DNA from: Calothrix membranacea FACHB-236
GTDB lineage: Bacteria; Cyanobacteriota; Cyanobacteriia; Cyanobacteriales; Nostocaceae
DNA: 39,743 nucleotides
Direction: 5' to 3'
Assembly: GCF_014696315.1 (NCBI RefSeq)
Contig: NZ_JACJPX010000076.1
Coordinates: forward strand, 1 to 39,743
Part shown: piece after piece, positions 24,142 to 39,743 of the stretch
How the letters are laid out: each line of letters begins with the position of its first letter
How positions within the stretch are numbered: position 1 is the stretch's first letter
Notes under the pieces: model-generated
What the model was told of the DNA's origin: nothing
What the model saw: only the letters and a program-made list of their open reading frames with translations
Database searches by the model: none
Translations under genes and position numbers: made by a program

Positions 24142-24561
24142 ATGCCTCATCGCAAACAGTCAAAAAGACTCGTTAGGAATCATCTCTTCTCACTGAGATT
24201 GAGCGATATCGAATTGGATCTGTTGCGAATAAAATCAATTGACGCGGGAATGTCAGCCAGTGAATTAATGAGGCGTAACGGATTGTTGCGACCACTACCC
24301 AAACGACTTAGCAAAATTAGCTTACAAACATATTGGGAACTAGGACAAATTGGCAACAACTTAAATCAACTTGTTAAAGCCACAAACACAGCTATAAAAA
24401 TGGGGCGCACTCCACCAGCAAACCCACAACTGTTACAAGAACTCTTAGAACTCTTACACCAGTGCAGACGAGATATTGCCCAAGCTGACACCGAAGAGAA
24501 TGACTGGTCAGAAGATGAGGAGGAAGACGAAGAAGATGATTGGGAAGCAGACGAAAGGTAG
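24142..24561 (+). CDS. mobC: MobC-like relaxosome accessory protein
   Basis: ATG 24142 (MPHRKQSKRLVRNH) gives 139 aa; a TTG two codons earlier is also possible. The first 50 residues have the strand-helix-helix of MobC proteins (HLFSLRLSDIELDLLRIKS, then MSASELMRRNGL). Residues 55-85 contain the family's LQTYWELGQIGNNLNQLVKA stretch, in which the I/L-N-LNQ motif is diagnostic. The tail is strongly acidic. MobC helps the relaxase bind and open oriT. The relaxase gene starts within the 3' end of this gene, so they are coupled. Confidence 0.85.
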   Translation: MPHRKQSKRLVRNHLFSLRLSDIELDLLRIKSIDAGMSASELMRRNGLLRPLPKRLSKISLQTYWELGQIGNNLNQLVKATNTAIKMGRTPPANPQLLQELLELLHQCRRDIAQADTEENDWSEDEEEDEEDDWEADER

Positions 24562-26716
24562 AGGTTTTCGCAAGCTACTGGATTATTTACATAACAGTGA
24601 AAATGCCAAGCTGATTGGCGGTAACATGAGTGGCAGAAATGCCAGAGAATTATCGAAAGAATTTCGACTATCTCGACAATTAAACCCAGATGCCGAACGT
24701 GTTGTATATCATGTCTCATTATCAGCAGCCAAAGATGATGTAATTTCAGAAGATAAATGGTGTGAAATTGGCAATCGCTATATGAAAGAGATGGGCTTTG
24801 ATGCCAATCAATTTGTCATCTTCCGCCACCAAAACACCGACGACGATCATGTCCACATTGCCGCCAGCCGCATCAGAATGGACACAGGATTATTAGTTGA
24901 TGATTCCTGGGATTATGTACGCTCTGAAAAAGTTCTACGCCAGATTGAAATTGACTATGAATTAGCCCAAGTCCAAGGCAGCAGAGAAAGACTAAATCGC
25001 ACACAAAGCACAGGACAATTTCGGCGCATTAAACGAGAACAAGAAGAATACGCAGAAGGTAAACGCGATACCCCACCACACAAGAGCATCAAGGAGCTAG
25101 TTCAGCAGACAATTGACAACGCATCTGTTGACAATCCCCAAATGCCCGAACTTATCATGCGGTTGCAGCAATCTGGTATCAGTGTCAGAACAGGATTTAC
25201 CAGAAATGGCAAGTCAAAAGGCATTTCCTACGAGAAAGATGGAATTGCTTTTAGTGGTACACAATTGGGTGCAGCTTACACCTTCCCAGGTTTGCAAAAA
25301 CATCGCGGTGTTGACTACCAACCAAAACGTGATGATGCCCGGATTGAGCAGCTATTAAACAATCCTGTCGGGCGAACAGTCCTAAACCAACAACCCATAA
25401 ATGCGATCACCTACGGTGGGCGGAACGCCATCGCTGATTTTATTGAACAGTCAGCAGTTGAGTCAACCTTGGCTCTTGCGTTACCACAAGTTATAGAACA
25501 ACTGTCTGTGTATCAGCAACAGTTAGAAGAAGGAAGAACTACATTAGCTGATCTGCGAGCGTTGATTACTCATAAAGAACAACGACTTTCATCACAAAAA
25601 GCTGTGGATGCGATCGCTAATTTTATTGAACAGTCAGCAGCCGAGTCAACCTTGGTGGAAACTTTACCACAATTAATAGAACAACTGTCCCTGTCTCAGC
25701 AGCAGTTAGAACAAGGAAGAACCACATTAGATGATCTGCGACCGGCAATTGCTCAAAAGGAGCAACAGCTTTCATCTCAAACAACAGTGGATGCAATCGC
25801 TCAAAATAAAGCTCAACCTTTAACCACCGATAAACCAAAGCTAAAAGAGAATTCTTTAGCCGAGTTATATCAGTATTACAGTACCTCTTTGCAAAACTTA
25901 TTAGTGACTGACCGAGACAAAGAAATTGCTAATAGAGCGTTATTAGATAATCGGCCAGTAGAAGAAGTTGAAGAAATTATATTAGCCAGTCCCGCCCGAT
26001 GGACTACTGAGGAAGCTAAAGCATTAGTTTTAATCGCTAACAATCAACTGGCATCTAATAAAGACCAAAACCAGAGTTCACCCCAGTTCACGCCACCATC
26101 AGAAGATGAGAAGCTATGGCCTGCATTAAAAAATTACCTGACTCAGCAACGGGGCATCTCATCAAATTTAGTCGAAACATTACATCGTAAAGGGTTGGGT
26201 TACATAGACCAGCAGCGAAAAGTTGTATTTATCAAGCGTTCTCTCAATGGTGAAAAATCAGGCGCACTGGTTTGGGATACCCCACGTCAAGACGATCGCT
26301 GTTCGCAGAACAGCGAAAACACCCAATCAAGACAGAGTTGGTTTCACATTAACTTAGGTAGAGAAACAGACGATAAAATCGAGAGAGTATTTTTGTGCGA
26401 CTCACCCATTGATGCACTGTCGATAGCACATATGGATATGAACGCACACAAGGGGCTACCACCAGTGAAAACCATGTACTTGGTAGTGGATGACCCGGAT
26501 AACTTGCCACTAGAATTCCTCAAAAATATCAGCAGAATTGGGCTGGCATTTAGTAAAGATGACCAAGGTAAAGAAACAGGCAAAACTGTATTAGAATTAT
26601 TGCCTCAAAGTAAGCAACTTCCACCCAATAATCATACTTGGAATGAGGATTTGCTCGAAATACTGCACATAGAGCAACAGAAACGCAGACAACAGCAGCG
26701 TGGTTTAAGTCGGTGA
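24536..26716 (+). CDS. mobA: MOBP-type relaxase with a C-terminal toprim/primase-like domain
   Basis: The ATG at 24536 was chosen: it follows AGGAGG, and MIGKQTKGRGFRKLLDYLHN is the normal opening, with Y17 the likely nicking tyrosine. The product is 726 aa. A second motif VYHVSLSAAKD (about 57-67) and the metal-binding HVHIAASRI (H105, H107) complete the relaxase. A middle region has two tandem 61-aa repeats and is coiled-coil-like. Residues about 520-715 resemble the DUF3991/toprim module (VERVFLCDSPIDALSIA near 620, then YLVVDDPDN), which in other relaxases primes replication after transfer. It overlaps mobC by 26 bases. With mobC it would make the plasmid mobilizable; no mating-channel genes are visible. 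Confidence 0.85.
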   Translation: MIGKQTKGRGFRKLLDYLHNSENAKLIGGNMSGRNARELSKEFRLSRQLNPDAERVVYHVSLSAAKDDVISEDKWCEIGNRYMKEMGFDANQFVIFRHQNTDDDHVHIAASRIRMDTGLLVDDSWDYVRSEKVLRQIEIDYELAQVQGSRERLNRTQSTGQFRRIKREQEEYAEGKRDTPPHKSIKELVQQTIDNASVDNPQMPELIMRLQQSGISVRTGFTRNGKSKGISYEKDGIAFSGTQLGAAYTFPGLQKHRGVDYQPKRDDARIEQLLNNPVGRTVLNQQPINAITYGGRNAIADFIEQSAVESTLALALPQVIEQLSVYQQQLEEGRTTLADLRALITHKEQRLSSQKAVDAIANFIEQSAAESTLVETLPQLIEQLSLSQQQLEQGRTTLDDLRPAIAQKEQQLSSQTTVDAIAQNKAQPLTTDKPKLKENSLAELYQYYSTSLQNLLVTDRDKEIANRALLDNRPVEEVEEIILASPARWTTEEAKALVLIANNQLASNKDQNQSSPQFTPPSEDEKLWPALKNYLTQQRGISSNLVETLHRKGLGYIDQQRKVVFIKRSLNGEKSGALVWDTPRQDDRCSQNSENTQSRQSWFHINLGRETDDKIERVFLCDSPIDALSIAHMDMNAHKGLPPVKTMYLVVDDPDNLPLEFLKNISRIGLAFSKDDQGKETGKTVLELLPQSKQLPPNNHTWNEDLLEILHIEQQKRRQQQRGLSR
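25427..25792 (+). repeat. two 183-bp tandem repeats inside the relaxase gene
   Basis: Two in-frame units (25427-25609 and 25610-25792) encode 61 residues each. Both start AIA(D/N)FIEQSA and run through LPQxIEQLSxxQQQLE to KEQxLSSQ. A third partial start (VDAIAQN) follows. They lie in the linker between relaxase and toprim-like domains. Confidence 0.75.
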
Positions 26717-27615: not shown

Positions 27616-30600
27616 TCACTCCGCTTCGCCAATCAGTGTAAACGATCCCCAATCGCTGGGGTTAGGATGTTTTTTCATCATAATTAGCATTGCTTGGCGT
27701 AAAGCTTGGGCTTTATCCGGATTCCGTTGCAACTGGCGATAAAAGTCAATCATTAGATCAGCTGTGGGAGCATCCGGAACCGACCACAAAGACACAATTA
27801 CACTAGGTACACCAGCAGCAAATAAAGAGCGGGATAATCCAATCACACCATCATCAGTGATTCGACCCCGTCCGGTGTCGCAGGCACTAAGAATGACTAA
27901 TTCAGCATTCAGTTTTAAGTCAAAAATTTCTTCAGCAGTGAGTAGACCATTGTCATCACCAGAGGGAGCAAGAGCGATCGCACCCGGTATGCCTGATCCA
28001 AAATTATCCAATAATCCGTGAGTAGCTAAATGAATTATTTGTGCTTTAGGTAAAAGTTGTAAAATAGTAGACTTTGTTGCGTTATTACCTGTAAGGGCTT
28101 GAGTTTTCAAAATAGATGCGATCACTTTTGCTTCTTTTTCAGCGCCAGGTAAGTTCAGTAATTGTTGCGGTGGACTCCCAATTGCAGATGGAACTTTGGG
28201 CATAGTGGGATTACCAACGACTACCGCATCCTGTTTTTGGAAAGACGTGATTAATTTCGTCTCTCTCAGACGTTTTCTTTGCTGGTGTGTCAAATCTAAC
28301 ACTTGAATCGAGGGAGCAGTCCGGATGGTATGTTTTTCGATTAGATATTCGCTATTGGCATCTTGTAAGGCTGGGAAGGGAACCAAGAATAAGGAATCTT
28401 GAGGGATGAAGATGACATGGGCATTCGGATCTTTAGGTAGGAAATCCGCAACGGGTTGAATTAGCAGTTGATATAGTTGCTTTAATGGTTGCTTTCCTCT
28501 TAGTTCTCTTACAAAAGGTGAAACATTTATTCCATTGCGAGTACCCCTGACACCGATGGAGTTACGGCTTTTACTAACGAGGTCTGTTAAAGAGGTATTT
28601 TCTTTTTGCCATAGAGAGGTGAGATTAACTCGACGAGATGACACTTCACCAGTGGGCTTGATAACCCAGATAAAGAGTTCTGATTCGCGGGTTTGCTGTT
28701 TGCCCTCAATGTTAAAATCATCATTAATAATAGAATATTCAACAATAGTTGCATTTTGCTCTCTGGCAATTTGCTTAATTTTGTTAATTGTAAGTGATAC
28801 AGGGTTGGCTAATTGAGTTGCTGATTCAGAAGAAAAACGTTTTGTTAATAACTCTACAAATGCCCGTGACCTACTACGCTCAGCTACTTCTAAAGCTACA
28901 TCGAATTGATGATTGGCGAATAGAGCTTTTTGCAAAAAGCGGTAGGTACGATTTTGTTCTTGAGAAATTGATACTTTATATGAATCATTGCTGCCTAATC
29001 TAGATCGCAGAGACTCCCAAATCTGAATACAGTTAAATAATGTATTTTTTGCTTCTATTAGCTTCCCCTTGCGAAGGAGAATACGTCCTAAATCATTTAG
29101 AGCTTGACCCTCTCCTTGGGGGTCTTTAATATCTCTTGCAATGACTAAATGTCGTTTATAATAATCAATAGCTTTGCTATAGTCTCCCACAGCAAAGTAA
29201 ATGTTACCAACATCACCCAGCGCTTGTCCTTCCCTATGAGAGTCTTTAGTGTCCCGTGCGAGGGCCAGACTTTGCTGCTGATATTCCATAGCTTTGGCAT
29301 AATTTCCTAAAGCTCTGTAAACATTACCCAGATTTCCTAGCGCTTGACCCTCTCCTTGGGGATCTTTAACCTGTCGTGCGAAGACCAAACTTTGGTGTTG
29401 GAAGTCCACAGATTTGGGATATTCTCCCAAAAAGTAATAAATAACTCCTATATTCCCTAACAACCGTCCCTGAAATAAGCTGTCTTTAGTTTCCTTTGCG
29501 ATACTTAGGCTTTGCTGCCAGTATTCAATTGCTTTGGTGTACTCTCCTATAACGCGGTAAGCATTGCCCAGATTGCTTAATGCAAGCATCTGGCCGGAGA
29601 GGTCTTGGATTTGCCTCGCTAGAGCTAGATGCTGTTGATAAAACTCAATCCCCTTAACATAGTATCCTTGGGATAAGTAAACATTGCCCAGATTGGCTAA
29701 AGCATTCCCCTCTCCTCGGTGGTCTCTGATTTCTCGCGCAGTTATCAGACTCTGTTGTAAGTACTTAATGGCTTTGCCATAATCTCCTACTAGCGTATAG
29801 TAATCGATTCCTGACCTAGCAATTCCCAGCCTTCCTAAAGTAGCCCCAAGAGCTGCCTCTGCTTGATTAAGTTTATTTTGGGCTTGTTGAGCTTGAGATT
29901 CCGCTTTTTGACGCACTTGTTCGGCTTTGGACGCTTCTTGCTTTGCTTGAAATGCTTGTTCCTTTGCAGAGTTTAATTTTTGAATTGCTACTTGAAGATT
30001 ATGTTCAGAATTTTTTAGTTCTGCTGCTTTCTGCTGCGCTTGTTGAGTAACATTATATAGTTGTCTTGTTTTTTGCTGTGCCTCTTGATTAAGCTTTTCT
30101 AGTTCTGCCTTCGCAACTACTAATCCTTGCTCTGCCTTTTGAGTTTCCTGTTGAGCTACTTTCAATTGTTCATTGGCAGTTTTTGATTTTTCCTGAGCAA
30201 ACTTAAGCTTTTGCTCAGCAGACTGAACTTTTTGAAGATTGGCTTGAATTATTTTCTCATATTTTTGATTAACCGTTGCTATTTCTGTATTGGCAGAAGC
30301 TACTTTATTGTCTGCCTCTTTAACTTTCTGCTGTGCCAGAATTACTGTAGTTGTTGCGAAGAGCGAGGTCAAAAACAAGATGGCAGATCCAATGCGAACT
30401 CTTTGCTGGGCTTTCTGTTTAGCTTCAGCCAATATCTGATTAGCTTGCTTTTCTGCTTGTAAAGCCTTTTGGATGTCTTGTTGTTCCAATTCTCGGCTAG
30501 CATCTAAGAAGCGATAATCTTGCTCACTCAAGCTTTTATCTGTTGCCCATGCCTGAGCATCTCGTAATGCCTGTCCACGCAATAGCCATGATTGCTCTTG

Positions 30601-31761
30601 ACAATTAGAGCCTAACCAAAGTGTGATTGCATCAGCATATGGTCGTAAATTTGCTAAAGCTTTTGTAACCCAATCAAGGTCAAAGACAGAAGCATAAATA
30701 TGATTGTAAATCTTTAGCTTTCCTTGCTGCTGAACTACCAATCCTGTTAGTCGCAACTCCATTTGTTCTGAAGTGTCATCGGCTGCTATTTCCCCTTGCC
30801 GTAAAATTTGCTGATACAATCCCAGCAACCTACCAGCACGCTGCTCATTCCTCAAAATGCGGTCTCTAATTGTCCGCAGATGTTCTGGCTCATCATTGCT
30901 TTCCCAACTGTCAATAATTTGCTGTTGCACAACTCTTTTTACCCACTCACCCTCTAAATGTTTTCGATTCTCATCAAAATTTTTTGAGTCCAAAAGCAGG
31001 AGTTGGCATAGTTTTTGGGTAAGAAAAGGTTGCCCAGCAGTCCAATTTAATACCTCTTTCAATACAGCTTGTGGATGATTTACTTTAAACGCCAAACCTT
31101 GCATTAAAGGCTCTGCTTCTGATAACTGAAAACCAGCAAGTTCAATCGCTCTACCTATATTAAAAGGTGTACGGTTTTTGTCTTGAATTAAATCCGAAGG
31201 AGCCGCCACCCCTAGTAGTACAAAACTTAAGCGTTTGTATTCTAGTTTTTCTGTACGTTTGTTGTAGCAAGCACGAATCGCTGCGAAAAAATCATCTTTA
31301 AAATTTAAGCTGAGTAGGCTATCAATTTCATCAATAAAAATTACTATTTTCTTAGTGATTCTCCGTAAAAGTATTTCTTCTAAAAATTCTGCCCAGCATT
31401 GTACCGGAGAAAGCAACTCACGCTCTTTCCACCAGGAGCGTAAGTTAAACTCTTGTGATAACTCAAAACTATTAACAATACTTCTAATTAAGCCGCCATA
31501 CCACTGCTGTGGAGTAACAGCCTGAGTGCCAATAACTGTAATATCAATCGCTGCACAAGCAATTCCCTCTTGTTGCAGCCTTTGCATAGTTTGCACCCGC
31601 AAACTAGATTTTCCCATCTGTCGGGAGTTCAATACATAACAAAACTCCCCTACCTTCAAAGCATTATAAAGCTCGTCGTCTGCCTTTCGTTTAACATAGG
31701 TAGGGTTATCTAAGGATAAGCTGCCTCCAACTTGATAAATTAAACTGGGTTCACTGCTCAT
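27616..31761 (-). CDS. AAA_35-TPR-CHAT protein, caspase-like effector candidate
   Basis: Starting at ATG 31761 ([15 protein letters not shown]) gives 1381 aa; GGAG lies eight bases upstream and the start shares one base with the previous stop (TGATG). An earlier in-frame start at 31809 is less likely. Domains in order: AAA-like ATPase (Walker [10 protein letters not shown] at 46-54, Walker [11 protein letters not shown] at 139-148); one membrane span near 455-475; a Gln/Ala-rich coiled coil (480-640); six 40-aa TPR units (about 655-900); a CHAT protease-like domain with the His in HLATHG near 1243 and the Cys in LSACDTG near 1292. CHAT is a caspase-like fold that cleaves proteins in some defense systems. 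The ATPase/TPR part would sense or scaffold and switch the protease on. Function is inferred. Confidence 0.85.
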
Positions 31762-33059
31762 CAGCTCACTCCGAAAATATCGCCGAAATACTGATGATAT
31801 AAATTGCAACTAATTTTTACTTCATTACCCATTAGATGCACTAACCCCATGCTGTGCAACTTATATCCCTGCATTGGTTCAAGACGCACTTTATCTGTTT
31901 CTGTTACCACTTTTTTCAGTGCTTCTGCCAATTCTGAATCTTGCTGAATAATGTTCCAATATCGGCGCACATGATTGCCATAAATTCCCGATTCTGTAGC
32001 CGCAGTTTGCAGAATTTGCTTTAAGGTAGTACTGGTATTAACCTTGAGATAAGAAAATGCCTGCCCTACCAAATAGGGATGTCCTCCCACTAAATTCATC
32101 AACTCTTGTATCTGCTCATAATCCCAAGAAAGTCCATATTGTTTTGCTAAATTATTGACCTGTTCTGATGTAAATTCTGGTAACTCTATTGGCACGCCAA
32201 CATTAAAAGGTGACTCATTCACCTTCAGCGGTACATAAACTTCTGTAGAGTGGACAACTACTAGCCGCAGTTTTTTCCAGATGTTACGAGTTTTCGCTTG
32301 TTCATGCCAAGCTCGTAGCAGTCCCAAAAATTCAGCACCTACTTCACGATAGGGGAAAATCCGCTCAACTTCATCCAAACACAAAACCAAAGGACTGTCA
32401 GCTTCTGCCAATAAATACTCTTCAAAATAGGCTGTGCAGTTCATCTTACTAGTAGAAAATTGTTCATCCCAGTAATCTGCCAGTCTGTTCGGCATTCCTA
32501 AAATTTGACCAACACTAACACATAACCATTTCAAAAATTTATCCAGGTTAGTAAAATGAGTTATTTCTGCATAATGCAGGTTCAAGGATACTGTACGATA
32601 ACCTTCACGGGCTAGCTGATGGAGAATCTTAGCTATCAAAGAGGTTTTACCCATTAAACTCGGAGCTTTAATCCTTAGCAGCCCGCCGGATTGGCATAGT
32701 ATTTGATAACAAATAGATTCAATGGGAGGACGTTCTACATAAATAAAGTCCTCGACTTCTGGCGCTTCTGGAAATACCTCAACACTTACCTCTTGAACTT
32801 GCTCATGTTCTGTTACCATCGCATTTTTACTACCGTTATGGTCAGAGGCTGCGATTGCTTTCCAATCCAAATCTAACTTGTCACAAATTTCTTGAAAATT
32901 TAGACAGTCTACAGGTTTACCGTTCAGAAAGTTACTTACGGTGGCAAGAGAAAGACCTAATTCTTCAGCCAAATCTTTTTGTCGTGGATAACCCTGACGT
33001 TGTACGGCTGCTTTAATTTTGTAAATCAACTTCTTATCAACTTTTACTGAGCGCGACAT
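31761..33059 (-). CDS. HTH-AAA_35 ATPase, regulator/partner of the CHAT protein
   Basis: A 432-aa protein with an N-terminal Cro/CI-like HTH (about 10-50; [21 protein letters not shown]) and an AAA_35-type ATPase domain: Walker [11 protein letters not shown] at 132-141, Walker [11 protein letters not shown] at 224-233. This is followed by [19 protein letters not shown] and [14 protein letters not shown], typical of the family. It is the same ATPase type as in the next gene, to which it is coupled by a TGATG overlap, so the two probably form a complex or a sensor/effector pair. The HTH may let it repress the operon or bind DNA as the trigger. The gene is the first in its operon. Confidence 0.8.
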
Positions 33060-33662: not shown

Positions 33663-34736
33663 TCACTCATCGCCTAGTAATGCTTCTAGCTTGTTTAGAA
33701 GGTTTACTAGCTGTTTTTCCTTGCGAGGTTCTTTCCAAAGCTGACGCTTTTTAATGCGCTGGGTGATATCTTTGAGCCGTTCTGGTATTTGATTAGGTGT
33801 TTTAGAAGTTGGTGGTTCAGCAGCAGTGCTGGTGATGATTTGTTCTTTGATTTGGCTTAAAGACCAATTGTTAGCTATCGTCTCTGACAAGAGTTGTTTT
33901 CGTAGTTCCTCATCTTTTACCCGTGCCAGAGCTTGGGCTTTGGTATATTCCAGTTTGCCTTCTCGCAGTGCCATTAAAATTTCTTCGGGCAGATTGAGCA
34001 ATGGTAAACGCTTGGTGGTGAACGATAGCCAATTCATCAGCCCCAGGCTCTCAAATACCTGTTGTACCGTCTTTGATTGCTCATCCTCTAGGTTAGGAGA
34101 AACGTTTCTCCTAGATTCTGTCTGCTCATCTAAATTATCAGAAATTTTATCAAGAGATTCCGTTTCTTCTTTTTTAGGAGAAACGTTTCTCCTAGATTCA
34201 TCTAATGACTCTGGTGGCTGCTGTTCTCCTTTGCTGTGAGCGTTCTTCATTCGGTACAGTAAGGATTTGACAGCTTCTACATCGCAATGCAGGCGGATTG
34301 CCAACAAATGCAAAATCCCTTCAGTTTCTTCAACAGGGTTAAGGTCTTCTCGTTGTAGGTTTTCAATCAAAGCCAACTGAAATGCTTGGTCATCAGATAG
34401 CTCACGCACAACCACAGGTGCAACTTCAAGTTTTGCTTCCTGCCCTGCCCTTAAGCGTCGTTCTCCTGCTACTAATTCGTATTTCCCCTCTGCCACTGGA
34501 CGCACCAGCAGAGGTTGGAGAATGCCATGCTGTTTGACTGACGAGACTAATTTTTTTAATGCTTGTGGGTCAAAGTATCGTCTGGGTTGGTGTTGAGGCA
34601 GAACTATATCTTCAAGTTTGATAGTAGTTTCAGTAGCGGTTAGCTTTTCTCCATCTGGTGAGGATAACCAAGGCGCAGGGGGTGGAGTTGTAATTTGACC
34701 CCCAAAAGGTTTGTCAGTTTGCTTACGTCGGATCAT
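33663..34736 (-). CDS. parB: ParB partition protein (plasmid type)
   Basis: A 357-aa ParB. The N-terminal CTP-binding domain shows IVLPQHQPRRYFDPQALKKL (45-64), GERRLRAG at 91-98 and ALIENLQREDLNPVEETEG (122-140). The HTH that follows carries an acidic, low-complexity insert (about 165-222) with two copies of SRRNVSP (181-187 and 208-214), encoded by two palindromes. The C-terminal part (LPLLNLPEEILMALREGKLEYTKAQALARV and beyond) matches DNA-binding helices of ParB. It overlaps parA by four bases (ATGA). Together with ParA it places plasmid copies in daughter cells by loading at a parS site. Confidence 0.9.
   Translation of the reverse strand: MIRRKQTDKPFGGQITTPPPAPWLSSPDGEKLTATETTIKLEDIVLPQHQPRRYFDPQALKKLVSSVKQHGILQPLLVRPVAEGKYELVAGERRLRAGQEAKLEVAPVVVRELSDDQAFQLALIENLQREDLNPVEETEGILHLLAIRLHCDVEAVKSLLYRMKNAHSKGEQQPPESLDESRRNVSPKKEETESLDKISDNLDEQTESRRNVSPNLEDEQSKTVQQVFESLGLMNWLSFTTKRLPLLNLPEEILMALREGKLEYTKAQALARVKDEELRKQLLSETIANNWSLSQIKEQIITSTAAEPPTSKTPNQIPERLKDITQRIKKRQLWKEPRKEKQLVNLLNKLEALLGDE
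34094..34194. repeat. two identical 20-bp palindromes inside parB
   Basis: TAGGAGAAACGTTTCTCCTA, a perfect palindrome, is at 34094-34113 and 34175-34194. One T before it and GATTC after it are also the same in both copies. The copies are 81 bp apart, exactly 27 codons. No other copy was noticed in the window. They may be parS-type ParB sites or a palindromic repeat inserted in frame. Confidence 0.9.
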
Positions 34737-35503
34737 AAAGCCTCCAAAGCCAAAGCGATTTCTTCAAGGATAGCGACTACAGAATGTTTAGGGTCAAATA
34801 CTGCTAGGGGCGCACGTTCTTCTGTGGCATCGACAAAAGCGGTAGCTCTGGGAATGGCTGGGAAAATCCGACCCCAAGCAGAAAGTTGTTCTTGTATAGC
34901 TGCTAATGCGCGTTTATCGGCTGAGTTTTGGTGAGCATACCGAGTGGGAACAAACCCTGCTATTTGAATTTTGCGGTTGGCTTTATTTTTTACGTGGGTA
35001 ATAGTTTGTAAGAGTTCGTCAGTTCCCTCAAAGGCTTTGAGATGAGTTTCCACGGGGACAAGGACGTGTGTGGCTGCAACTAAGGAGATATAAGAAAGCA
35101 ATCCTAAACTGGGGGGACAATCTATCAGGATGAAGTCGTATTCATCTAGAACAGGTTCAATGGCTTCCTTGAGGCGCAAGTCGCGCATGGCAGCACTGAC
35201 TAACTGCATTTCTGCTCCACTCAGGACTCTGCTTGCTGGAACCAAGTCCATACCGTGAATGCCCTCATGAATCGGTAAGGGCTGCTCGTTGATAATGGCA
35301 TCAGCAACAGTTTTTTGTAACTGAGATGGTACTAACCCCATGAATTTGGTCAAGGACGCTTGGGGGTCAATGTCGATGAGGAGAACGCGGTGTTCTCGTT
35401 TCGCTAGGTGGTATCCCAGGTTTTGGGTCAGTGTCGATTTGGCGACACCACCCGCCTGATTAAACAGGGCAATAATGCGGCATTGCTTGTCAGAAGTTGA
35501 CAC
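34733..35503 (-). CDS. parA: ParA partition ATPase
   Basis: A 256-aa ParA/Soj-type ATPase. The deviant Walker A region reads NQAGGVAKST (15-24); the signature first Lys of KGGxxKST is Ala here, while the second Lys (K22) is kept. Motif A' is LLIDIDPQASLTKF, and the Walker B strand is FILIDCPPSLGLL. No N-terminal HTH extension is present, so it is the short (type Ib-like or chromosomal-like) form. It drives plasmid segregation with ParB, whose gene it overlaps by four bases. A divergent 50-aa RHH gene starts 313 bases upstream. Confidence 0.9.
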   Translation of the reverse strand: MSTSDKQCRIIALFNQAGGVAKSTLTQNLGYHLAKREHRVLLIDIDPQASLTKFMGLVPSQLQKTVADAIINEQPLPIHEGIHGMDLVPASRVLSGAEMQLVSAAMRDLRLKEAIEPVLDEYDFILIDCPPSLGLLSYISLVAATHVLVPVETHLKAFEGTDELLQTITHVKNKANRKIQIAGFVPTRYAHQNSADKRALAAIQEQLSAWGRIFPAIPRATAFVDATEERAPLAVFDPKHSVVAILEEIALALEAL

Positions 35504-35815
35504 TGGCTTTTGTTCCTAGAAGATACGTTAACTTTTGGTCAACCGACTCGATTTTAGTTTCCAGTTTATTGAAGTGTATCAGAATAGGTTAGAGATAGCC
35601 TCAACGATGCAAGCTCATTGTGCTGTCGTAGCTAAGAGCCAGTAACCATAAAATATTTTTTTTGCATCCACTAAAAGAGTGATATTTATCAATTTTATGA
35701 AGTAATTTCGATTTTTTATCAAACAAGAAAATACGTAAATATCTTTTGTGCATTTGTAGTCTTTTTTTAGCGTAACTAGCTATAAAATCGTTAAAATGAT
35801 ACAAAAACAGCCCTA
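35504..35815. other. divergent promoter region of parAB and the RHH gene
   Basis: 312 A/T-rich bases. A TATAAAATCGTTAAAATG tract near 35780-35797 may be the -10 region for the RHH gene. No iterated centromere-like repeats were seen. A minus-strand frame here (35601-35804) is not credible as a gene. Confidence 0.4.
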
Positions 35816-35968
35816 ATGATGCACATTAGTATTGCAGACGACCTCAAAAAAAGGTTTCATGCTGCTTGCGCCTTGCGGAGGCTGAAGATGAGCCAAATTG
35901 TGGCAGAACTCATTGAGCAATGGTTAACAGCTAACGAAGCTCCCAAGTCTGTTGACTTGAAAAGATGA
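35816..35968 (+). CDS. 50-aa RHH protein (ParG/CopG-like)
   Basis: Two consecutive ATG codons at 35816 and 35819 open a 50-aa protein: MMHISIADDLKKRFHAACAL, then RRLKMSQIVAELIEQWLTAN. This is a complete ribbon-helix-helix fold with a short polar tail. Divergent orientation from parA suggests a regulator or centromere-binding role in partition, similar to ParG, in addition to ParB. A related fragment of this gene is found at 36878-36936. No strong ribosome site is visible. Confidence 0.65.
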   Translation: MMHISIADDLKKRFHAACALRRLKMSQIVAELIEQWLTANEAPKSVDLKR

Positions 35969-36046: not shown

Positions 36047-36417
36047 GTGCTTAATATGTTATCAGATGAGCAACGACGTAGATTGGAGCAAGAAAAAAAA
36101 TCCTTTGAACAATCTTATGAACTCCAAAGTGAAAAAATAGCAAGACTGCGAAATGCTTTGGTTATTGAAACTGACCCATCACGTAAGTTTCAATACGAAC
36201 AGCAGATTAAAGTCGATCTATTAATTATGCAATTGGTATGAACCAACCGATTGAAGACAAAGCCGCGATTGCATTTGCTCAAGGCTTTTATGATGGACTG
36301 GGGTATAAAAAATCAGGTAATCAAGATTTATTCCAAAGAGCATTTGATGAAGGTATGGTCGCCATTCAGATGGAAAACCTTTCACAAGGGTCAATACCAG
36401 TTTTGAAAAAAAGATGA
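36047..36417 (+). pseudogene. internally deleted coiled-coil CHAT gene
   Basis: The first 52 codons (MLSDEQRRRLEQEKKSFEQS...) form a coiled coil of the same type as the start of the intact gene at 38399. The frame then breaks near 36207. From INYAIGMNQPIEDKAAIAF onward, in another frame, the sequence equals the last 65 residues of that gene nearly base for base, ending VLKKR and a stop at 36415-36417. The whole catalytic middle (His and Cys motifs) is missing. This is a deletion derivative of a duplicated gene. Confidence 0.85.
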
Positions 36418-36501
36418 GACAGGTATAACCTACAACAAAAAATTAATTTTATATTCTAAAGACGCTCTATTCCCTATATGTAATAAGTTTATGTTAAACA
36501 T

Positions 36502-36762
36502 ATGCAACTACCCGGTCAAGAACAGAAAGAACTACAATCGGCTTTGATTGATGCTTTTCCTAACACAGCATCATTAGAGCAGATGTTGTCATTTGAATTA
36601 GATAAAAATATAAGAGCGATTGCTGGTGAAGGGAGTTTACAAGATATTATCTTTAAATTAATACAAACAGCTAATTCTCAGGGATGGGTTGAAAATTTAA
36701 TTTGCGCTGCATATAACCACAAACCTGGAAACGAAAACTTGCAAAGTATTATTCAAAAGTAA
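36502..36762 (+). CDS. stand-alone effector-associated domain (EAD1-like)
   Basis: An 86-aa protein that looks like a whole EAD1 domain: ELQSALIDAFPNTASLEQML, FELDKNIRAIAGEGSLQDII, FKLIQTANSQGWVENLICAA, and NPGN-like KPGNENLQ. EAD domains are small helical death-like adaptors that bring effector and NTPase parts of bacterial conflict systems together by like-like binding (established by comparative genomics). A free copy beside a CHAT gene and an FGE domain fits that role. No ribosome site was recognised; the start is the only ATG that gives the whole domain. Confidence 0.7.
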   Translation: MQLPGQEQKELQSALIDAFPNTASLEQMLSFELDKNIRAIAGEGSLQDIIFKLIQTANSQGWVENLICAAYNHKPGNENLQSIIQK

Positions 36763-36837
36763 AGTGTTAAAAAGAGTAACAATCTACGTACAAAAATCGA
36801 GAAACGGTTGGAGTTTGAATATGATAATCTAGAATAA

Positions 36838-36936
36838 ATTGGCACAGGTGCTTTTGGAATTACCTATCGTGCTACTATAAAAACCAAGAAAAAATTCCAT
36901 GCAACTTGCGCTTTGCGAGGGCTGAAGAGGAAGTAA
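36838..36936 (+). pseudogene. mosaic relic: kinase glycine loop joined to an RHH fragment
   Basis: After a stop at 36835-36837 the frame reads IGTGAFGITYRATI, the glycine-rich ATP loop of a Hanks-type Ser/Thr kinase. It continues without break into KKKFHATCALRGLKRK, which matches KKRFHAACALRRLKMS in the 50-aa RHH protein at 35816, also at the DNA level. A stop follows at 36934-36936, three bases before the next gene. Two unrelated gene pieces appear fused by recombination, leaving no functional domain. Confidence 0.55.
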
Positions 36937-36939
36937 GCT

Positions 36940-37380
36940 ATGGGTTGGCTTGAGCATCTCCAAGAACAACAGCAGAAAGATTTAGAGCTATTGAAGAAAC
37001 TGGAAGATAAGCTGCGTTATGAAAATAATCCACGTCGTCAAGGTGAACTACATCTTGAAATTGATGAAATAAAGGAAAGGATTAAAAACCGCGCGTCAGA
37101 CATACAGCAAGAGTCAATTTTAAACAAGGGAATCTATACAGTCACTCCTAAATTAAATCATCAATCATTAATTGGACTTAATAAAGAACAATTAATGGGA
37201 CATCGCAATTCTTCACTAAATAAATCAGTATTTCTTCAAACATGGAAAATCTTGCTTTACTTTGCTGTTATTTTTTTTATTCTGGCTTTAGCATTATTTG
37301 CAAAACAAGAAATTATAGGAATAAATGGAGATAACAATGATCATAATAACATCAAAATTAATGTCACCAATCGAAATTAA
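36940..37380 (+). CDS. coiled-coil protein with one membrane span
   Basis: A 146-aa protein. Residues 1-58 are a coiled coil (LQEQQQKDLELLKKLEDKLRY...) whose LRYENNPRRQGELHLEIDE section parallels LRYETNPRVMGGYRRDIER in the CHAT protein at 38399. A polar stretch leads to one membrane helix (about 103-121, ILLYFAVIFFILALALF) and an Asn-rich outer tail (NGDNNDHNNIKINVTNRN). A membrane-anchored partner that pairs with the CHAT protein through the shared coiled coil is plausible. The next gene's start lies inside its 3' end. Confidence 0.55.
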   Translation: MGWLEHLQEQQQKDLELLKKLEDKLRYENNPRRQGELHLEIDEIKERIKNRASDIQQESILNKGIYTVTPKLNHQSLIGLNKEQLMGHRNSSLNKSVFLQTWKILLYFAVIFFILALALFAKQEIIGINGDNNDHNNIKINVTNRN

Positions 37381-38272
37381 AAGCATAAAAATTATCAATT
37401 TAATTTTAGCTTTTTTTATTTTATTTGGATGTCAACAAAGTAATAAAACTGGTATTAAGGGTGATAAAAACAATAACAATCAAGTTGTTATCTCTGACAA
37501 GAGTAATATAACATTTAATGAGAAATCTAAAAATATTGCAGAAACCCTTAAAGCACCTTCAGATGTTATAAAAAAAGTTGAACCGGGAAAAAGTATAGAG
37601 TTTATTAAACAATATTTAGGTGAACCTCATATAAAACAAACATTGAGTTTTGAAATTAAAGATTATGATTCTGAAAAAGGTAATTTTTTTAAAAAAGAGG
37701 AACAATTTACTGAGTTTTTCTATAATCTTGAAAATATGAATATTATTGTAGGCTTACAAGATGAAGAAGTCGTTTACGTTAGTTTTGAAATTAAAAATTA
37801 TAACGAATCATTTAATATTTATACTATTGATGCTGTAGAAACAAAATTCAATTTAGGAGAATTAAGTTTTGGAACAATAAATTGTGGTCATCTTAGCGAT
37901 GAAAATCCAAAGTTAAGTGAAGAACCAGCCTTGAAGGGAATTTTGAGAGGTAATCAATCCCAAGCATATTTAGTTGGTTATTTTGATTTGCCTCATGCTT
38001 GTAATAGTAAGTTGTATAATTATTATTTTGGAACGCTTGATTTTGATTGGGGTAGACTCGAATCACAGGATAACTCTGAATTTAACAATACCTCCGTATA
38101 TGCTGATGCTTTAATTAAACTTAATAACGCTAAAGATTTTAAAATTACATATGTAACAATTACAAGAGTTACTCCAGCAAATAACTCGATTATTGAAGAG
38201 CCTCCATCGTCTCGTTATGATCCTAATTCAGCTATGCCATTTAACTATCCTGGGAGGATGTTTAAAGATTAG
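37337..38272 (+). CDS. lipoprotein of unknown function in the EAD/CHAT island
   Basis: ATG 37337 has GGAG six bases upstream, better than ATG 37325; it overlaps the previous gene by 44 bases. The 311-aa product has a lipoprotein signal: a basic start, then IINLILAFFILFGC with the lipobox Cys at 32. An Asn-rich stretch (KGDKNNNNQVVISDKSN) follows, like the tail of the previous protein. Residues 65-140 (VEPGKSIEFIKQYLGEPH, then strands) recall the ETEC_3214-type domain, but that is a weak match. It would face the periplasm or outer surface. Base composition is very A/T-rich, more than the rest of the window. Confidence 0.6.
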   Translation: MIIITSKLMSPIEIKSIKIINLILAFFILFGCQQSNKTGIKGDKNNNNQVVISDKSNITFNEKSKNIAETLKAPSDVIKKVEPGKSIEFIKQYLGEPHIKQTLSFEIKDYDSEKGNFFKKEEQFTEFFYNLENMNIIVGLQDEEVVYVSFEIKNYNESFNIYTIDAVETKFNLGELSFGTINCGHLSDENPKLSEEPALKGILRGNQSQAYLVGYFDLPHACNSKLYNYYFGTLDFDWGRLESQDNSEFNNTSVYADALIKLNNAKDFKITYVTITRVTPANNSIIEEPPSSRYDPNSAMPFNYPGRMFKD

Positions 38273-38398
38273 GATGAATTTGAATAAATGATTTTGACAA
38301 GTTTAGCAGTATTTATTGATGAAAATTCATATAAGTGAAGAAAAATTTTTCTTGAATGGTCATACTATCAAAAATTTAGAAAATAAGGAGCCAAGTTT

Positions 38399-39310
38399 GT
38401 GTTATCTCAAAGCTTTCACCAGAGGTTGAAAGATTTAGAAGACCACATTGCCTCAGACCAAAAATTGCTCAAAGACTTTGAGGAAGTACTGCGTTATGAA
38501 ACAAACCCTCGTGTAATGGGTGGGTATCGCAGGGATATTGAAAGGCAACGAGAATCACTTGCTAAATACAAACAAGAATATGCCGAACTCAAGCAAGAAT
38601 TTGCAGCTACTCCAGATGCTCAGATGCAGAATGTCGAAGGACAATTGCAACAGATGGATGCAAAGTTGAATGTCTTACTAAGCGGTCAGTATGCTATTTC
38701 TGAAAATCAGAATCAAATACGTTTAATCCCTGAGCCTGCAAGTATACAGCAAAAAATCCTGATTCTGGCAGCAATTCCTCACGGGCTGCGTTTGGATAAA
38801 GAGATTCGAGAAATCGAAGAAGCTATACGACGAGCTACAAATCGGGATTTGTTTGAAATTCGCATTAGAACTGCTGTACGTCCTCCAGATATCCGTCGTG
38901 CTATTGCAGAAGAACAGCCTCAAATTGTTCATTTTTGTGGACATGGTTTGGAAAATGGCAGTTTGCTATTAGAGGATGATGGGGGGAATAATAAACCTGT
39001 TCCCCCAGAAGGACTCGCAGCACTATTTAAGTTGCACGCTGATTATGTAAACTGTGTGCTACTTAATGCCTGTTATTCAGAAAGAATTGCTATAGCAATT
39101 AGCCAATATATTAATTATGCAATTGGCATGAATCAACCCATTGAAGATAAAGCAGCGATTGCATTTGCTCAAGGTTTTTATGATGGACTGGGTTATAAAA
39201 ACTCAGGTGTTCAATATTTATTTCAAAGAGCTTTCGATGAAGGTATGGTTGCCATTGAAATGGAAAACCTTGCACAAGGGTCAATACCAGTTTTGAAAAA
39301 AAAACTTTAA
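38399..39310 (+). CDS. coiled-coil CHAT protease-like protein
   Basis: GTG start with AAGGAG eight bases upstream. The 303-aa protein has an N-terminal coiled coil (about 5-95), a linker, and a CHAT-like domain from 118 (KILILAAIPHGLRLDKEIREI). The catalytic pair is visible: H182 in VHFCGHGLENG and C225 in LLNACYSE. The C-terminal part ends GSIPVLKKKL at a run of nine A. A -1 shift at that run enters an open frame that encodes an FGE-sulfatase domain, so the full product may be longer. A deleted copy lies at 36047-36417. CHAT-type proteases with EAD or coiled-coil starts belong to bacterial conflict systems; the trigger here is unknown. Confidence 0.8.
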   Translation: MLSQSFHQRLKDLEDHIASDQKLLKDFEEVLRYETNPRVMGGYRRDIERQRESLAKYKQEYAELKQEFAATPDAQMQNVEGQLQQMDAKLNVLLSGQYAISENQNQIRLIPEPASIQQKILILAAIPHGLRLDKEIREIEEAIRRATNRDLFEIRIRTAVRPPDIRRAIAEEQPQIVHFCGHGLENGSLLLEDDGGNNKPVPPEGLAALFKLHADYVNCVLLNACYSERIAIAISQYINYAIGMNQPIEDKAAIAFAQGFYDGLGYKNSGVQYLFQRAFDEGMVAIEMENLAQGSIPVLKKKL

Positions 39311-39743
39311 ATGCAAAATTATCAGATACTTCTGTTATTGGTGATCAAGCATCAGAAATAGGAGCAGATGCTAATCTTGAGACTTTGACAATTAGTGCTA
39401 TTCATGTATCGGATTCAGCAGGCTATGTATATAATTTTAATGTCGTTACAGTAAACGCTAGTGGTCACGAAATAGATCGCTGTGAAAAGTACACTCAATT
39501 TTTTACTGAGCATCTTAAAGATGGAACTACGTTAGATATGGTAATTATACCTGCTGGTACTTGTCTGGTTGGATCTCTCCAGACTGAAGTTGGAACATTT
39601 GATGATGAAAGCCCACAGCATTCTGTAAGCGTAAAATCCTTTTTAATGGGCAGATACCCAGTTACTCAGTCACAATGGGAAGCTAGGCATCACCGTGGTC
39701 GGGTAGCAGGACTATATTGCTACCCGACCACGGTGATGCCTAA
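39301..39743 (+). pseudogene. FGE-sulfatase (formylglycine-enzyme-like) domain, cut by an inverted repeat at the window end
   Basis: In the frame one base back from the CHAT frame, reading goes on as TLNAKLSDTSVIGDQASEIG, then YNFNVVTVNASGHEIDR, then LDMVIIPAGTCLVGSLQTE, FDDESPQHSVSV, FLMGRYPVTQSQW. This is the start of an FGE-sulfatase domain with the linker that precedes it in cyanobacterial proteins. There is no suitable start codon before the domain, so it needs a frameshift from the CHAT gene or is a broken fusion. After QWEA (39683) the sequence turns into an inverted repeat, which truncates the domain. Confidence 0.75.
39684..39742. repeat. perfect 25-bp inverted repeat at the window end
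   Basis: The arm at 39684-39708 (TAGGCATCACCGTGG...) is the exact complement of 39718-39742, around a 9-base loop (GGACTATAT). It begins at the point where FGE similarity stops and ends one base before the window ends. A mobile-element end, an inserted hairpin, or an assembly fold-back are all possible. The 10-mer GCTACCCGAC in it also occurs at 935-944, where an antidote gene is cut. Confidence 0.85.

Follow-up and report, generated by a model that had tools for sequence, protein, structure and literature searches.

How multicellular cyanobacteria silence large sets of potentially lethal effectors is the question raised by an island of conflict-type genes in Calothrix membranacea FACHB-236. 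The island (36047–39743) lies at the end of contig NZ_JACJPX010000076.1, which was analysed whole as a stretch of 39,743 nucleotides (the window; contig C139 of an 8.8-Mb assembly in 164 contigs). A first-pass annotation had seen there an EAD1 adaptor, a coiled-coil CHAT protein, a coiled-coil membrane protein, a lipoprotein and an FGE domain, and had proposed a distinct surface-sensing arrangement. The main interest of the region is not this combination but a leader in front of it, consisting of a small ribbon-helix-helix (RHH) gene and, upstream, a putative operator of 8-bp TTTGTA boxes (Table 1). We think it probable that the region is a plasmid cargo site beside parAB, where at least two conflict-gene cassettes with RHH leaders stood in tandem and were partly deleted; this judgement takes in the mode of working proposed below.

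The RHH protein matched Pfam ParG (PF09274) with 21.3 bits, narrowly missing the curated cut-off of 21.4, and a profile comparison matched it to the ParG structure 1p94 (E-value 8.5e-7). Its AlphaFold model (predicted local distance difference test, pLDDT, 83.7) contained helices at residues 7–20 and 24–38, and no strand was visible in the monomer. When the model was searched with Foldseek, 1p94 was the best match (E 0.046, probability 0.99) and other RHH proteins came next; a protein this small kept all E-values above 0.001. Judged by this model, the product of 35816–35968 is an RHH-fold protein nearest to ParG. Relatives were matched in 103 of 217 family genomes, the weaker matches being other RHH subfamilies. 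All 80 named loci were cyanobacterial by title, mostly of Nostocales genera, and in a phylum-wide draw (386 genomes) RHH matches of comparable strength outside the family were few and weak. No RHH gene was confirmed in viral contigs.

A conserved element, TTTGTACATTTGTAGNTTTGTA, was located 5′ of the RHH start, the flanking sequence not being conserved. Of 61 sequences, 55 contained it with no more than five mismatches (the mean after shuffling was 9.1), and sites with at most three mismatches numbered 43 in leaders and 4 elsewhere (441,575 bp). At control loci of other RHH genes the element had 7–11 mismatches, except at locus L176 (4 mismatches). Column similarity was 0.50 at a shift of 8, compared with 0.23–0.36 at shifts 3–7 and 9–15; such an 8-base period of TTTGTA boxes would be as expected if RHH dimers sat side by side. 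The version in the window, with four mismatches to the consensus, was the best match there; alone it is weak, and therefore the case for an operator rests on the relatives. Allowing two mismatches, the leader pattern was found in 72 of 208 family genomes, and a backwards control gave 25 matches in 19 genomes. At four loci (L124, L125, L137 and L153) a leader-like element preceded a CHAT or Trypco gene with no RHH gene detectable, and these may be operators served from elsewhere in the genome.

The neighbours of the RHH gene were surveyed starting from the RHH gene itself. A locus counted as positive if a search seeded with EAD1 and CHAT alone detected either of them on the RHH strand, no more than 2.5 kb downstream. 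The first set contained 60 of the 66 hits ranked 2–67 in the RHH search, with their flanks; one of the six unfetched hits lay inside L065 and five were ranks 62–66. The second, a named GTDB set comprising the best 80 of 88 relatives, overlapped heavily with the first. Thirty of 35 loci of other RHH genes served as controls; the five excluded were L154–L156 and L183 (strong subfamily) and L186, a relic locus, and no match was obtained for L185. Within the 60-locus set (Nostocaceae), EAD1 or CHAT followed the RHH gene at 48 of 59 loci and lay on its upstream side at 5 of 58. In the named set the counts were 59/79 downstream and 5/77 upstream. Among other RHH genes of the same phylum only 1 of 29 was positive, and this one (L176) itself belongs to the strong subfamily. 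A wider choice of seeds, some of which came from the loci themselves, gave 61 positives among 76 named loci (51/55 of those with a full-length RHH gene; upstream 6/64). A first downstream open reading frame (ORF) of at least 100 amino acids was found at 59 of the 60 loci and lay on the RHH strand at 57. A Pfam census of neighbours, independent of the search seeds, assigned CHAT to 30 of the 59 first downstream proteins, EAD1 to 20, GUN4 to 6 and TIR to 4 (overlapping counts), and the downstream set also included proteins with no Pfam match at all. Among 51 upstream neighbours EAD1 occurred twice, and CHAT was not among the 25 families listed. PADLOC labelled the downstream genes as CHAT (25), PD-T4-6 (7), 2TM/PycTM (3), ThsB (2) and phospholipase effector (1). 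Fifteen of the 60 loci were on contigs larger than 1 Mb, with the same downstream genes, indicating that chromosomes are included. The association of the RHH leader with EAD1/CHAT genes is thus well supported.

Core genes of conflict systems were also found behind the RHH gene. A MoxR gene lay within 5 kb downstream at 7 of the 60 loci and upstream at none; two MoxR search seeds came from two of these seven loci. VMAP-C was recognized by Pfam in all four MoxR loci tested (L059, L061, L091 and L092), together with Trypco1 in L092. Trypsin, caspase or EAD1 parts were present in the tested VMAP-C loci, in line with descriptions of MoxR-vWA-VMAP systems. Because MoxR and VMAP-C genes stand behind the RHH gene, one leader precedes core operons and satellite effectors alike. 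It is likely, judging from these sequence comparisons, that the RHH gene and its boxes form an autorepressor-operator leader shared by conflict systems and satellite effectors. No literature link between ribbon-helix-helix proteins and effector-associated domains was found in a search of open-licence PMC papers, which leaves absence in print unproven. PADLOC labelled 2TM genes at three loci as Pycsar effectors; L061, one of those so labelled, was rejected as a Pycsar locus, the next gene there encoding a VMAP protein followed by MoxR. A 238-amino-acid family beginning MTQ.EWLIDEAV, without a Pfam match, was the first gene behind the leader at five loci (L059:3071-3784, L101, L192, L224 and L244) and preceded EAD1 or VMAP genes.

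Several observations weigh against this account. The loci are related, the 59 downstream proteins falling into 26 clusters at 60% identity, and several search seeds were drawn from the same loci. The leader pattern is absent from the C. membranacea genome when two mismatches are allowed, and a chance-level site at 2010 (minus strand) of the window has five mismatches, compared with four in the window's degenerate leader. Opening 30 leader-pattern loci showed an RHH gene at 15, CHAT or Trypco without a detected RHH gene at 4 and neither at 11; by itself, therefore, the pattern lacks specificity. Matches to coiled coils are of low complexity, and the single-sequence fold model of the lipoprotein was useless (pLDDT 31).

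The leader could have a wider role, which we rate at even chances: a common switch throughout the Nostocales, placing unlinked MoxR/VMAP cores and EAD1, CHAT, TIR, GUN4 and kinase satellites in one regulon, in which every repressor would read every operator and the leader would supply homology for exchanging effector bodies. A shared RHH-operator leader would provide a simple transcriptional control common to core and satellite genes, a sequence tag by which further effector families could be found in Nostocales, and a means of exchanging cassettes. Under such a regulon, the tandem relics of the window could record effector-body swapping through leader homology.

Table 1. Features of the leader, the island and a neighbouring gene pair in the window
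Feature	Position	Strand	Basis or location
AAA_35 gene pair, overlapping: 1397-amino-acid AAA_35-TPR-CHAT and helix-turn-helix-AAA_35	27616–31809 and 31761–33059	-	Pfam
Putative operator TTTGTGCA TTTGTAGT CTTTTT, degenerate version of the TTTGTACA TTTGTAGN TTTGTA leader	35745–35766	+	71 bases before RHH start
ParG-like RHH protein, 50 amino acids, predicted repressor	35816–35968	+	Pfam, profile, AlphaFold/Foldseek
Relic of coiled-coil/EAD1/CHAT gene: first 52 residues, deletion, CHAT tail in another frame	36047–36412	+	
EAD1 ORF, 86 amino acids, head of broken EAD1-kinase gene	36502–36762	+	Pfam EAD1 (PF19955), 1.1e-28
Kinase-start relic: linker and glycine-rich loop IGTGAFGITYRAT, in-frame stop	36763–36882	+	comparison with L066
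Fragment of second RHH gene, fused in frame to kinase relic	36883–36931	+	profile, DNA identity
Coiled-coil (B-type) membrane protein, 146 amino acids, one predicted transmembrane helix	36940–37380	+	open frame, hydropathy
Orphan lipoprotein-like protein, AT-rich (28% GC)	ATG 37361 or 37325, to 38272	+	N-terminus
Coiled-coil (A-type) CHAT protease-like protein, 303 amino acids, motifs HFCGHG (His) and LNACYS (Cys)	38399–39310	+	
5′ part of FGE-sulfatase (formylglycine-enzyme fold) gene	39385–39743	+	Pfam, 7.9e-10

All island parts lay on the plus strand, and EAD1 (99.9 bits, curated cut-off 24.2), CHAT (E 9.2e-9, 35.6 bits, cut-off 24) and FGE (39.2 bits, cut-off 23.3) all scored over their Pfam cut-offs, so that the first-pass annotation was right on these points; its link to NTP-dependent conflict systems was also supported.

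The island begins with relics (36047–36931). The one at 36047 resembled a 575-amino-acid coiled-coil/EAD1/CHAT protein of the sibling locus L056, its start being 98% identical (residues 1–52) and its tail 78% (residues 322–386), with the CHAT tail out of frame with the first half. Its second half (36216–36412) was 90% identical in DNA to 39106–39302, where the intact CHAT gene ends, and 13 of the 19 differences fell at third codon positions. The EAD1 ORF was 73% identical to residues 8–85 of an EAD1-kinase-TPR protein of L066. Pieces collinear with this EAD1 part corresponded to L066 residues 89–110 (68%, linker) and 113–126 (93%, loop), and two stops break the gene, one after the EAD1 ORF and one within the kinase relic. 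The RHH profile matched the adjoining fragment at 36883–36927 (E 1.3e-4), which was 79% identical in DNA to 35845–35891. The EAD1-kinase loop runs into this second RHH fragment, and two leader-effector cassettes would therefore once have stood in tandem, with their join deleted. Read from the sequence, the island is partly fossil, two of its pieces being relics, and the EAD1 ORF, a relic of an EAD1-kinase gene, is a genuine domain but not evidently a working adaptor as had been proposed. It could still be translated alone, since a stand-alone EAD1 gene follows a gene annotated as ParG in Crinalium. Elsewhere in the genome (G000) EAD1 occurred just once, at locus L123, in a large HEAT-repeat protein on contig C126, whose NACHT and CHAT parts were read by eye.

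The contig looks like a plasmid of Nostoc type from its gene content. Frames for ParA (34733–35503), ParB (33663–34736) and a relaxase-like protein (24476–26716) were named by reading, and annotated plasmids whose DNA matches at the start of parA support these names. On a sibling plasmid of Nostoc foliaceum (L056, same contig as L189) ParA was 94.5% and RHH 94% identical, and behind the RHH gene were a coiled-coil-transmembrane-GUN4 gene and then a coiled-coil-EAD1-CHAT gene. The site divergent from parA held differing cargo across six opened Nostocales plasmid records (L116–L121): VapC, SNF2 and toxin-antitoxin genes, a helicase, and large or small unknowns. Because cargo differs at the same parA start in these six annotated plasmids, we regard it as a cargo site. 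The AAA_35 pair at 27616–33059 is a second conflict-type module on the contig. GC content fell to 27.6% at 37001–38000, compared with about 41% for the whole window, and the low stretch covers the orphan lipoprotein gene.

These data also fit an accumulation of plasmid cargo by repeated insertion and deletion beside parAB, without function as a unit and with an ordinary plasmid gene in the RHH protein, as the relics at 36047–36931, the other cargo of the six related plasmids and the orphan lipoprotein would suggest. We consider this unlikely: the four frames that follow (for the membrane coiled coil, the lipoprotein, CHAT and the start of FGE) are open and in line on the plus strand, no terminator-like site was found in the island region, and the RHH association is far above both the upstream and the other-RHH controls, chromosomes included. 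The first-pass annotation had allowed that the island might be a random set of leftovers. As a combination it does consist of leftovers; it is not random, because the RHH leader in front marks such genes at many loci.

The two coiled coils of the island are related, as had been noticed earlier, one profile matching the N-termini of both the membrane protein and the CHAT protein. This profile matched in 41 of 208 family genomes, and in the genome of C. membranacea only in the window, both matches lying within 1.5 kb. The N-terminus of the membrane protein (B-type) shared 41–48% identity with those of coiled-coil proteins bearing TIR, FGE or HEAT/Clp_N, and the protein's strongly hydrophobic stretch ILLYFAVIFFILALALFAK had a mean hydropathy of 2.6. 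Residues 1–108 of the CHAT protein were 73% identical to the constant A protein of L293, and its CHAT part was 68% identical to L296. A two-gene coiled-coil system was seen at L269–L294, in which a constant A protein (about 230 amino acids) stands beside a B protein with a variable effector. A lay beside B at 17 of 29 other loci opened; the B proteins joined the coiled coil to TIR, FGE, HEAT/Clp_N, a CTD10-like domain or a short unknown domain, and this recurring two-gene arrangement had no lipoprotein family in common with the window. No accepted Pfam or NCBIfam model was found for either coiled coil, and a tblastn search of plasmids with the coiled-coil protein gave no match, probably owing to low-complexity filtering. 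Because A and B genes are neighbours elsewhere, and the two types occur in this genome only in the window, the membrane coiled coil and the coiled-coil CHAT protein may plausibly pair as a membrane-tethered protease.

The lipoprotein is assigned by its signal-like N-terminus, ending FILFGC. No credible homologue was found in 216 other family genomes, 318 other phylum genomes, plasmids, phages or IMG/VR; the sole weak match (E 0.004, family genomes) was rejected, as that gene reads as a TonB receptor. NCBIfam ETEC_3214 (NF043066) matched with E 0.0024 and 17.4 bits, below its cut-off of 35, and no ETEC_3214 members were found in 208 family genomes, in a search that also failed to detect its positive controls. 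The membrane protein tail (GINGDNNDHNNIKI, 37310–37380) and the lipoprotein start (GIKGDKNNNNQVVI, 37450–37500) share a motif by eye, perhaps a small duplication. The FGE gene is incomplete because the window is the whole contig and ends within it. A palindrome at 39684–39742 (two 24-base arms, 9-base loop) breaks the gene there; similar intergenic palindrome stretches were found in 11 plasmid records (Nostoc, Calothrix and Dolichospermum), and the genome itself has a single copy.

It is improbable that the membrane protein, lipoprotein, CHAT and FGE proteins make up a distinct, ATPase-free protease system for surface sensing, as first proposed. In its favour, their four frames follow one another directly on one strand, A- and B-type coiled coils neighbour each other as gene pairs elsewhere, and FGE is itself the B-type partner at several A-B loci. 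Against this, neither a second lipoprotein nor a second example of the order coiled-coil-transmembrane, lipoprotein, coiled-coil-CHAT was found in any collection searched. With no credible relative there, the lipoprotein was rejected as part of a conserved system, and the island set is thus not one conserved system. The ATPase is missing from the 3.7 kb as had been stated, but not from the contig, which carries the two AAA_35 genes.

The weakest alternative, a partition protein ParG with the boxes as its centromere and with conflict genes as mere co-residents of plasmids, draws on ParG being the nearest solved and Pfam relative, on the name "plasmid partition protein ParG" given to relatives in NCBI and on the coating of boxes and self-repression by ParG (below), and is very improbable given that a parA-parB pair already stands next to the RHH gene on this plasmid, that RHH genes followed by the same genes also occur on large chromosomal contigs and that the next same-strand gene in the opened loci is an effector or core operon and not a ParF gene.

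For the tandem-cassette site we propose the following working. Each cassette would have begun with a leader made of a promoter-operator of 8-bp TTTGTA boxes and the small RHH gene. Cassette 1 would have held the coiled-coil/EAD1/CHAT gene and probably the EAD1-kinase gene; cassette 2, its own leader mostly lost, would comprise the coiled-coil-transmembrane, lipoprotein, coiled-coil-CHAT and FGE genes. RHH dimers lying side by side on the boxes would block the promoter and keep expression of both RHH and effector low, and loss of RHH occupancy, for example in infection, would release it. The membrane protein, through its B-type coiled coil, would pair with the A-type of the CHAT protein, as the A-B gene pairs suggest, bringing the protease to the inner membrane; the lipoprotein and FGE proteins might, speculatively, supply the signal.

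Among known systems, ParG of plasmid TP228 (1p94) resembles the RHH protein in its fold, in being closest in sequence and in repeats as likely binding sites. PMC7308502 describes ParG as coating degenerate tetramer boxes that are separated by AT-rich spacers, and as repressing its own operator and genes. The window protein differs in having 50 amino acids against 76 and no N-terminal extension, and its subfamily precedes conflict genes, on chromosomes too, rather than acting with ParF. The MoxR-vWA-VMAP ternary systems with their EAD-coupled satellites (Kaur et al. 2020, PMC7159879) are similar in that EAD1, CHAT/TIR/GUN4/FGE, Trypco1, VMAP-C and MoxR stand behind the same RHH leader; RHH, ribbon-helix-helix or operator were not mentioned in the searched text of that paper. 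The 3.7-kb island differs in having no core component: no MoxR, vWA or VMAP gene was among its scanned proteins (the Pfam scan took in eight window proteins), and the ATPases of the contig are AAA_35. EAD9 (PF19962) is alike only through a weak match of a third coiled-coil type, L296 reaching E 0.03 and 14.5 bits where the curated cut-off is 25; weak matches occurred in 3 of 13 members of A4 (best 0.041), and none was reported on the window piece 36050–36238 at E up to 1. The effector itself compares with the CHAT caspase-like proteases. The solved protein 8tl0, which we take to be a SAVED-CHAT (PADLOC uses this naming too), matched the window protein with E 8.7e-15, and the two share the CHAT domain with His and Cys motifs both aligned; the window CHAT is fused to an A-type coiled coil, not to SAVED or TPR.

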